DNA from: Leptodactylus fallax
Lineage: Eukaryota; Chordata; Amphibia; Anura; Leptodactylidae
Assembly: GCA_947044405.1 (NCBI GenBank)
Contig: CAMRHE010000170.1
Location: 124,001-188,000 of the forward strand
Direction of reading: 5' to 3'
Length of the DNA: 64,000 nucleotides
Shown: piece by piece, positions 57,465 to 62,453 of the stretch
Numbering within the stretch: the stretch's first letter is position 1
Layout: each line of letters begins with the position of its first letter
The notes under the pieces: model-generated
The model's database searches: none
Told to the model about the DNA's origin: nothing
The model's input: only the letters and a program-made list of their open reading frames with translations
Position numbers and translations under genes: made by a program

Positions 57465-57884
57465 TGTGAACCTAGAGGGCGCTAGGGAGCGACCCAAGGC
57501 CAGCCCTGAAAAGGCCCTCAGCCACACCTTTGAGTGGGGGGGCATATCTCCAGAAGGCTGGAGAAACCTGCATGGAGCAGGAAATCGTGGAACCAGCCAA
57601 GGACAGAGAGGCGGTCTGTCCTAGGATGGCTGAGGTCCACGGGGGACTTTTGCTTGAGATGAGCATTAGTCAGCCTAGATAGGGGTCAAGGAGTGAGTAA
57701 GTGCCCTAACTGTGGCCCAGGCTGTTTTTTGTTTTGTTATGTTGCACTTAAGCTGAAATAAAGCCAATTTGCTTTAAATTGGCAACGTCTGAACACTGTC
57801 TCTCCGGCGCCCAGTACCACGAACCACTGCTGTTGGGACCAGGAGTCTGCCGCCATTTGAGACTAATCCCCCCAAATTTTCACA
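57465..57884 (+). repeat. Capture element 5' LTR
   Basis: Direct repeat of 62,035-62,453. Polyadenylation signal AATAAA at 57,757-57,762. TG...CA ends. Confidence 0.88.
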
Positions 57885-57886
57885 TA

Positions 57887-57905
57887 TGGTGCTATGGATT
57901 CGGGC
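57887..57905 (+). other. Primer-binding-site-like sequence
   Basis: TGGTGCTATGGATTCGGGC starts with the TGG that complements a tRNA CCA end. The first six bases (TGGTGC) fit a glycine-type tRNA end, but the rest does not match well from memory, so the primer is not assigned. Confidence 0.4.
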
Positions 57906-58376
57906 ATAAAGAGATCCACGCAAGTCCTGGAAGACAAGTTGGTGACTGCAGTACTGCTAAGTGTGCATTGTGGCCTACAGCTGGAAGAAATCTGTGATTT
58001 CAACTGAGAAACCCAGGAAGGGGTGAGTGGAATTGCAACATAGCAAAGTGTGTGCAAAACTGGTGAAAGTAAAACTCTGGAAGAGGAATCCAGGGAATGG
58101 ACTTTGTGTATACTGTGGCTCAGAAGTCTGTAAAGTGCTTGCTGATGGCAAGAAAGTAAGCAATGTGTGTAGAAGCTGGATATTGCAAACAGTCTATGTG
58201 AAAGGCTATGGTGCCATGTCTGTGTTTTCTGTGGAAGACAGAAGAAAATGCTGGTTGTTGTAGTGCCACATAAGTTAAGTGTTTGAATACATGTGACTGC
58301 AGAAGATAGCAAAAAAAGTTGCTGCCGGTTGAACCCAAGGTTGCTGTGGAATATTGTGTAATCTTGTTAGTAAACC

Positions 58377-59463
58377 ATGGGCAAGAAAAAGAGAATTTCA
58401 GCTTGTAAAAAAGCAGAGAAGTTATGCACAGGTTTATTAGTGCAGCAGTCTGAATGCAGAGAGACACAAAACCCGGAGCAGAGCATGTGGAGTGCAAGTA
58501 AAGATAATGGGTTGCATGAGAGTGACTTAGTTTTTCTGAAGCACCTCTATTCTATGAATGAATATGTCCCTGCTGACAAGGTGTCTCATACTTGAGTGCA
58601 TCAAAGCGCCAAAGATGAAAATATTATGGTGCAGCAGCTTCTAGATGAGATTAAAACCATCAGGTTCATTTATGAGGATGAAATATCTGATTGGAAATGG
58701 CAACTTGAGGTATCAGAAAAAGAGAACCTTAAGTTAAAGAAAGAGCTTGAGACTATAAAGAGTTCATATCCTAGTCACTGTGAAAATGTGGTACTGGGTT
58801 TGCCTGGAATGGACTGTGTCACTAAGAAGGAGTTTGCAGAAATTAAATGCGCTCTATCTAATAAAGTTATACAGAGTGTGGAACAAAAGCAAGTGCTTGA
58901 GAAGCAATTGCAGGATTTTAAAGGAGCAGCATGTCCAAGACTCCATTGTCAAAGAGAGTGTCATTGAAAAATTAAGAGATGACCTTGAAACTGCTAAATG
59001 TGAGAGAAGTGAATTTTTGCAGTGTTAGTCAGAATGTCTGGATGACCAAGTCAGGAAGTGTGAAAAACTTTCGGCTGCATTAACTGACAAAGAAAATGAA
59101 ATTGCAGAGCTTAGGAAGCATGTGTCTGACCAAGAGAGCGATTTAGAATCTGTGGTGCAGACATTGCAGTCAGAGCAAAACTTGCATGAACTAAAGCAGG
59201 TTCGCCTAAATAGTGAAGTCAACGAATGGCGAAGCAGAGCTGGAGTTCTGGAACAAAGAGAAATGGAACTCAAAGCTAGAATATGTAGCCTGGAGAGGGC
59301 GCTCTCAGGATCTTGTGAAGATAATGAGAAATTGTCTGTTTTGGTGCAAAATAAAGACAAAGAATTGATGTAGATGTCGTCTGTCCATGTTCAGAAAGTG
59401 CAAGCCTTACAGGAGAGTCACAAAAAAGTAGAGACTCAACTTCAAGTGCTGCAACTACAGTAA
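58377..59463 (+). pseudogene. Captured coiled-coil segment, origin not identified
   Basis: A long heptad-rich coding region. 58,377-58,967 is one frame with a single TGA at 58,593-58,595. A frameshift near 58,920 moves to the next frame, which continues to 59,463 with TAG at 59,026-59,028, TAG at 59,371-59,373 and TAA at 59,461-59,463. Typical stretches: KKEFAEIKCALSNKVIQS, KLRDDLETAKCERSEF, RSRAGVLEQREMELKARI. It is rich in Glu, Lys, Leu, and resembles vesicle or cytoskeletal coiled-coil proteins, but I cannot name the parent gene. The start at MGKKKRISACKK could be the element's own initiation region. Confidence 0.6.
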
Positions 59464-59519
59464 AAGTCACAGAAGGGGACAGGTTTCAAGCAGAACTGCT
59501 AGACAAGGCAAACGGTCTG

Positions 59520-61723: not shown

Positions 61724-61858
61724 AATGGGATGGCTGAAGACTATGGCGAGAAATGTGATGAAAATGATGTTATCCCCTGTATGGCGAATTGTGAAGGTGA
61801 TGAAGTAAAACTTGCGTTTGCACAGAATGGCCAGGATCTTGGCGTAGCATTTAAAGTG
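61541..61858 (+). pseudogene. Captured HNRNPU-like SPRY domain
   Basis: From GDGKVCFEMKV (61,541) through an in-frame TGA (61,721-61,723) to EDYGEKCDENDVIPC and FAQNGQDLGVAFKV (61,858). Words and order agree with the SPRY domain of HNRNPU more closely than with HNRNPUL1, from memory. The nucleotide-binding and RGG regions of HNRNPU are absent. After 61,858 the frame stays open into the LTR (to 62,059) with no recognised domain. Confidence 0.85.
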
Positions 61859-62013
61859 ATGAGAAAACGGAGAACTCGATGGAGCGGTATTTGGAAGAAA
61901 AGACCGCCAGATTGGGACTTCTGGAGAGACACTGGACAGGCATACATGGTTGAAGAGGGACTTCGACATAGGATGTCTCGTCCCATTGTAGCTCACCCCA
62001 TGGGTAGTGAGCT

Positions 62014-62024
62014 GAGGGGGAGGG
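62014..62024 (+). other. Capture element polypurine tract
   Basis: GAGGGGGAGGG, 10 bases before the 3' LTR start at 62,035. Confidence 0.65.
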
Positions 62025-62034
62025 TATGTGAGTA

Positions 62035-62453
62035 TGTGAACCTAGACGGCGCTAGGTAGCAACCCAAGGCCAGCCCTGAAAAGGCCCTCAGCCACACCTT
62101 TGGGTGGGGGGCGTATCTCCAGAAGGCTGGAGAAACCTGCATGGAGCAGGAAATTGTGGAACCAGCTAAGGACAAAGAAGCGGTCTGTCCCAGGAGGGCT
62201 GAGGTCCATGGGGGACTTTTGCTTGAGCTGAGCATTAGTCAGCCTAGATAGGGGTCAAGGAGTCAGTAAGTGCCCTAACTGTGGCCCAGGCTGTTTTTTG
62301 TTTTGTTATGTTGCACTTAAGCTGAAATAAAGCCATTTTGCTTTAAATTGGCACCGTCTGAACGCTGTCTCTCCGGCGACCAGTACCACGAACCACTGCT
62401 GTCAGGACCAGGAGTCTGCCGCCATTTGAGACTAATCCCCCCAAATTGCCACA
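62035..62453 (+). repeat. Capture element 3' LTR
   Basis: 419 bp copy of 57,465-57,884; TGTGAACC start and CCACA end. Confidence 0.88.

Follow-up and report, generated by a model that had tools for sequence, protein, structure and literature searches.

The window analysed here, a 64,000-nucleotide stretch of Leptodactylus fallax DNA (assembly GCA_947044405.1, contig CAMRHE010000170.1, forward-strand positions 124,001 to 188,000), contained at positions 57457-62453 a long terminal repeat (LTR) element with both ends. It belongs to a multicopy family, and its interior recurs between LTRs at many other places in the genome. We class the family as LTR-type mobile DNA because LTRs, a polypurine tract (PPT) and short target duplications accompany an interior that recurs in many copies with shared breakpoints. 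Between the LTRs lie pieces of at least four host genes, joined in a single reading frame in the less damaged copies. The family is probably non-autonomous, moved in trans by another endogenous retrovirus (ERV) or LTR element, with its gag-pol replaced by the chimeric gene.

The interior ran in the order coiled coil, myosin, HIP1R, myosin again, Velo1 and SPRY, all on one strand (Table 1). Pfam searches of six plus-strand interior open reading frames (ORFs) matched Myosin_tail_1 (E = 8.7e-73), HIP1_clath_bdg (E = 1.5e-18) and SPRY (E = 7e-4). No retroelement domain, and so no gag-pol, was found in these six ORFs (the leader lay outside the scan), nor was gag or pol found by Pfam in an 828-aa ORF of another copy, L029. 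The original prediction, made from the letters of the window, had described an interior that holds myosin tail, HIP1R and SPRY coding pieces on the same strand and no retroelement enzyme gene, which agrees with these matches. It had also named three host genes: the capture stands, and the number rises to at least four, as Velo1/Bucky ball had been overlooked. Its inventory was incomplete in a second respect, having missed another myosin-tail piece between HIP1R and Velo1, which comes from an earlier part of the tail when compared by eye with MYH9 residues. For myosin piece 1, the best PDB match was human Myosin-9 residues 1254-1461 (E = 6.6e-75); in the window this piece is about 130 bp shorter near 60058 than in most copies. 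A protein search with a 560-aa ORF returned HIP1R and Velo1/Bucky ball of frogs, with 83% identity over 165 aa to Leptodactylus fuscus. The SPRY piece reached E = 1.7e-9 in L029 (Pfam), with DDX1 as its nearest PDB match; we take it to be of HNRNPU type by its likeness to the HNRNPU sequence. An HNRNPU-like linker before SPRY is kept in the other subfamily and lacking in that of the window. For the coiled-coil block, which had been left without a parent, two protein searches yielded no parent at E <= 0.001 among candidates of about 345-1,099 aa and of 581-1,848 aa, and comparison with PDB gave nothing convincing. A search of viral contigs with one element ORF found no relative. Structure prediction for the 828-aa ORF of L029 (predicted local distance difference test score, pLDDT, of 49) gave long helices followed by low confidence.

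First-look genome searches returned 4,218 candidates with the LTR as query (40 scored), 2,495 with the front interior (40 scored) and 3,323 with the HIP1R protein (69 scored). These are rough figures and not copy counts, and they suggest copies on the order of 10^3. As a control, the HIP1R and Velo1 parts that are lacking from the element gave 17 and 12 candidates, compared with the 3,323 from the HIP1R query that includes the captured part. We fetched 20 copies, the best-scoring of 39 other places from the front-interior search. The pieces present stood in the same order in 20/20 (matches on the opposite strand being left out), and all five blocks (coiled coil, myosin, HIP1R, Velo1, SPRY) were found in 15. 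LTR sequence, partial in some, flanked 19 of the 20 on both sides, the 3′ side of L034 lying outside the view, so the lack of LTRs that marks a chimeric retrogene made by a long interspersed nuclear element (LINE) was not seen. A second subfamily (L042-L051) lacks most of myosin piece 1 and has a fuller HIP1R and the HNRNPU-like linker. Exact 4-bp target duplications were read by eye at 10 of 16 other copies, three of them in AT repeats; those of L026 and L031 were counted after shifting the LTR start by 2 and 10 bases. The remaining six comprised three that were not assessable (L035, L036, L038) and three in which the duplication was absent or ambiguous (L022, L029, L033). That the element is an assembly chimera, or a chance nesting of unrelated repeats, has a probability close to nil, as the same order and breakpoints occur at numerous separate places in the genome, the majority flanked by target duplications of their own; a single misassembled chimera, which the original prediction had raised as a way to be wrong, is ruled out by these many copies. 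Its related concern that the LTRs might occur elsewhere without this interior was largely answered, since five of six other loci found by the LTR alone (L003-L008) have interior pieces next to the LTR, and L006 has none within 1.5 kb.

The host HIP1R gene lies at C19:8290199-8302658 and has introns. The HIP1R stretch of the element corresponds to six host exons, with splice-site letters at the exon edges, and in 10/10 subfamily-A copies it is contiguous, 94.5-96.8% identical to the host and 786 bp long (785 in L051); in L030 it is 88% identical, with small gaps. As six host exons are contiguous in the element copies, this piece derives from spliced mRNA. Such an origin is shown for HIP1R only, the myosin, Velo1 and SPRY pieces being assigned by homology. 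Host Velo1 lies at C69, where the coding frame continues beyond both element breakpoints and the spacing of the breakpoints fits the element piece without an intron. A snippet from the 5′ end of the Velo1 piece was matched in 25 of 31 sequences and began at the same base in 24 of these; one from the 3′ end was matched in 24 of 31 and ran to the same base in 22. Breakpoints common to nearly all copies indicate a single origin, and their position inside coding sequence fits template switching. With the spliced HIP1R, these breakpoints and the common piece order, multi-gene capture by an LTR element, the central claim of the original prediction, is supported.

Template switching could be dispensed with if copies sitting in host introns had given rise to chimeric pre-mRNAs that were spliced and then reverse transcribed. 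The HIP1R 3′ breakpoint, at the joint with myosin, falls a few bases from the end of exon 6, and because it is so near an exon end, splicing at that joint is possible. Both Velo1 breakpoints lie inside coding sequence, contrary to what such exon shuffling predicts, and in MYH9, an intron-split gene at C226, coding continues beyond the end of myosin piece 2, a point that is weakened in that MYH9 may not be the parent. We did not accept MYH9 at C226 as the direct myosin parent, its identity to myosin piece 2 of L051 being about 76% over 55 bp. Overall, assembly by splicing appears distinctly improbable.

In the window element the frame is broken by stops and frameshifts. Single, unaltered copies retain open chimeric frames of 628 codons (L027), 679 (L039) and 828 (L029), and L051 has a 1,216-codon ORF from an ATG, of which about 1,144 codons are chimera and the rest enters the 3′ LTR. 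The interior had been read as separate pieces in tandem, a description that has to give way to one in-frame ORF in the less damaged copies. Among 22 sequences, and counting only copies with readable motifs on both sides of a join, the five joins were in frame in 9/12, 7/8, 5/8, 12/12 and 15/16. At one in three per join, all five would be in frame by chance in about 0.4% of cases. Across the pooled coding pieces, changes found in at least two copies numbered 195 replacement (N) to 105 silent (S) compared with 543:175 for private changes (p = 0.0007), and the same test in the two other frames gave p = 1 and 0.62. A smaller copy set gave 119:66 compared with 411:129 (p = 0.0028; control frames 0.92 and 0.92), and p = 0.029 when only changes in at least three copies were counted. 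For single blocks, the N:S comparison gave p = 0.059 for the coiled coil and p = 0.091 for SPRY (0.018 without CpG sites). When the element was compared with the host HIP1R gene, the differences carried by at least 80% of 11 copies were 3N:14S, and private ones were 78:35. These counts suggest modest constraint on a translated protein during the spread of the family; they are no proof of it.

The same capture might instead have left an inert chimera, its frame inherited from coding parents, with the LTRs, leader and PPT carrying the family. Non-coding non-autonomous LTR families are known to spread well, many copies of this one bear internal deletions and stops, and changes in at least five copies and fixed changes are not clearly constrained, all of which an inert passenger would accommodate. 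It would account less readily for five joins that are in frame in most readable copies, for a depletion of shared replacements in one frame only with the other two flat, or for the 3N:14S on the HIP1R stem, and we consider it unlikely. That HIP1R stem would also suit a period of host-like constraint, as would be expected if a chimeric host gene with a host function had arisen first, by exon shuffling or retroposition, and been captured whole by an LTR element later; the HIP1R 3′ junction near an exon end fits this too. No host locus with the whole chimera was found among the best-scored genome matches, a result that also meets the worry in the original prediction that the interior might be found with introns at one host locus. 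The Velo1 breakpoints inside coding sequence and the lack of a chimeric protein among 95 protein matches (candidates of about 308-980 aa) argue further against a host gene first, which is improbable.

Several points besides the exon-edge joint weigh against a template-switched chimera that was moved in trans and constrained as protein. Changes in at least five copies were 72:30 (p = 0.27), nearly fixed differences between subfamilies 10:5 (p = 0.38), and Velo1 alone gave p = 1 in the N:S comparison. With CpG sites excluded, p = 0.043 was obtained for one frame of the non-coding leader. Intermediate HIP1R changes (21:10) resembled private ones, and part of the 3N:14S changes may lie on the host's own branch. 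The copies studied are the best-scoring ones and no random sample, and MYH9 at C226 was not accepted as the myosin parent. Finally, an autonomous partner was not found, the widest LTR pair among the scored LTR matches being another chimera.

Excerpts of one paper describe a model of template switching between LTR-element RNA and cellular mRNA (PMC5408686). Under the preferred reading of a non-autonomous family moved in trans, host mRNAs would have been co-packaged with element RNA in particles of another LTR element, and reverse transcriptase would have switched template several times, from mRNA to mRNA and finally returning to the element. One such product, having a single long ORF, would have become the master and spread as its own RNA was copied, with the enzymes for movement supplied in trans by another ERV or LTR element. 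A protein of about 1,140 aa, comprising long helices, a Velo1 stretch and SPRY, may have been translated and have helped its own RNA to spread; at a guess, it could have aided particle assembly or the retention of RNA in oocyte germ plasm. Velo1 organises germ plasm in frog oocytes, according to the accessible part of PMC5080839, and germ-line capture would therefore fit. It is possible, if doubtful, that the family is a parasite whose coding part is entirely of host origin, its Velo1-bearing protein selected for an advantage to the element RNA in germ-line replication or transmission, and its gag-pol coming from elsewhere. The captured part of Velo1, residues 124-288, falls largely beyond the prion-like stretch at the N terminus, which excerpts of PMC6219760 place at aa 1-150 of Buc. 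The idea that Buc binds non-muscle myosin II was dropped, as the same excerpts report no binding (PMC6219760).

TG...CA direct repeats, a short target duplication and a PPT beside the 3′ LTR, the hallmarks of an LTR retrotransposon or ERV-type element, were all found. Two 420-bp LTRs had been proposed; the pair is real (94-95% identical in aligned blocks), and its limits had to be moved to 428 and 427 bp, with the true start 8 bp upstream of 57,465, because ATGTGA(C/G)TA stands before both LTR copies and most other copies begin TGTGAGTATG directly after the PPT. The proposed purine tract adjoins the 3′ LTR, and the site resembling a primer-binding site (PBS) starts with TGG and lies 2 nt after the 5′ LTR. 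The leader that follows is possibly a packaging region. In 16 other copies, for some of which only partial LTRs were compared, the Kimura two-parameter distance (K2P) between LTRs was 0.020-0.055. With the window element included (0.020-0.056), an assumed rate of 1-3e-9 substitutions per site per year would put this at roughly 3-28 million years.

Table 1. Features of the LTR element and its flanks, in window positions.
Feature	Position	Strand	Basis or remark
5′ target-site duplication side, CTAA	57453..57456	.	3/4 bases match
5′ LTR, 428 bp, TGTG...CACA, has AATAAA	57457..57884	+	pairwise LTR comparison, genome matches
Leader without open frame, stops in all three frames	57885..58376	+	conserved in copies
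PBS-like site TGGTGCTATGGATTCGGG, 2 nt after LTR	57887..57904	+	
ORF start and coiled-coil block, here broken by stops and a frameshift	58377..59419	+	
Piece 1 of a myosin-II heavy chain tail, similar to MYH9 residues ~1254-1461 and beyond	59420..60313	+	Pfam, PDB
HIP1R piece with joined host exons, bearing two internal deletions that fuller copies lack	60314..60890	+	
Myosin tail piece 2, out of gene order, from an earlier stretch of the tail (MYH9 ~1085-1130 type)	60891..61050	+	
Velo1/Bucky ball piece, matching L. fuscus residues 124-288	61051..61547	+	protein search
HNRNPU-type SPRY piece	61541..61869	+	Pfam SPRY; HNRNPU presumed
Tail before PPT	61870..62013	+	similar tail in copy L051
PPT GAGGGGGAGGGTA	62014..62026	+	
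3′ LTR, 427 bp	62027..62453	+	K2P 0.056 to 5′ LTR
3′ target-site duplication side, CTAG	62454..62457	.	

The PBS-like site occurs in two variants among the copies, TGGTGCTACGGATTCGGG and TGGTGGAGGATGCGGG. The second, found in L027 and L031 and one base off in L040, presumably resembles tRNA-Ala, and two variants in one family would make a primer switch possible. Rfam and tRNA scans of the window found nothing. The LTRs of L003-L008 are 92-94% identical to those of the window and those of L010-L020 mostly 77-84%, around interiors that are about 95% alike, which suggests recombination or faster LTR change. In L038 (C97) a PBS-like site directly follows the 3′ LTR, suggesting a tandem or recombined element (LTR-interior-LTR-interior). 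L034 has an inverted partial copy upstream, and at 4320-7301 (C197), after a break within its HIP1R piece, come a gag-like ORF (Pfam PNMA, E = 1e-7) and what appear by eye to be zinc-knuckle-like and protease-like motifs. This ORF probably belongs to another LTR element nested in the copy. Since it follows the break and looks like a different element, we rejected it as the gag of the partner. The widest LTR pair (C14, 11.6 kb) was likewise rejected as the autonomous partner, being another chimera, interrupted by a LINE. L041 (C14:8390600-8395400) has its coiled coil interrupted by what appears by eye to be a LINE, with a 656-codon reverse-transcriptase ORF, and elsewhere retains an open chimeric frame of 562 codons reaching the end of the stretch. 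Transposase fragments, which we take to be Tc1/mariner-like, lie upstream of two copies (L015 1-495 and L017 1-432). In the window itself, two 93-bp direct repeats, 91% alike, lie upstream of the element at 56574-56879, and arrays of a 31-bp tandem unit, related by eye, occur at 30670-30947, 36552-36866 and 38441-38549, the first on the opposite strand.

The capture of genes by LTR elements is commonly regarded as rare, limited to single genes and dead on arrival. Here a vertebrate element fused pieces of at least four genes in one frame, while no gene of its own is recognisable any longer, and spread as a chimera to apparently about a thousand copies in order of magnitude; there are signs that its fused protein was in use. 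The family offers a many-copy record of the assembly of a multi-domain gene by template switching, and would illustrate how a parasite of the genome may build a new gene out of the messages of its host. It also becomes testable whether protein derived from the host, part of a germ-plasm organiser included, can sustain a selfish element.

LARD and TRIM elements have LTRs, PBS and PPT around a non-coding interior without gag-pol and are moved in trans. The frog family shares the LTRs, the PPT, the apparent lack of gag-pol and the movement in trans proposed here, and has a PBS-like site, whereas its interior is a long coding chimera, open in less damaged copies. In metazoans, LTR-mediated retroposition (Tan et al. 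2016, as described in the accessible part of PMC5408686) similarly involves template switching between the RNA of an LTR element and encapsulated mRNAs of the cell; there, on that account, it is a source of retrocopies, whereas in the frog family the chimera itself amplifies. Crocodilian ERVs are likewise vertebrate LTR elements with captured host mRNA: excerpts of PMC4299795 report the capture of KIT-ligand and nectin3, with ORFs under purifying selection, KIT-ligand having come without loss of an ERV domain and nectin3 having replaced env. By that account they carry one gene per lineage, in contrast to the at least four fused genes of the frog family, in which no viral gene was recognised.

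The closest known case is Bs1 of maize. It is low in copy number and has gag-related retroelement coding left. Papers by Jin and Bennetzen in 1994 and by Elrouby and Bureau in 2001 and 2010 bear titles that speak of a hybrid ORF arising from multiple gene transductions, and of exon shuffling. Excerpts of PMC5408686 associate Bs1, an LTR element, with retrocopies from three cellular genes. Pieces of at least three host genes between LTRs, the hallmark of the Bs1 type, were found in the frog family as well, with splicing shown for HIP1R only. The two are alike as LTR elements with several cellular gene copies, a likeness in how they work and no claim of kinship. The frog family differs in being in an animal, with candidates on the order of 10^3 and at least four genes, one of them used twice, and in having no recognised gag/pol remnant (in the six interior ORFs and the L029 ORF) and a measured frame-specific constraint. 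The portion of the open-licence literature consulted showed no LTR family of animals in which several host genes are fused, which is no proof of absence. Capture of the Bs1 kind was already known; what is new is an animal LTR family with many copies and a constrained chimeric ORF.

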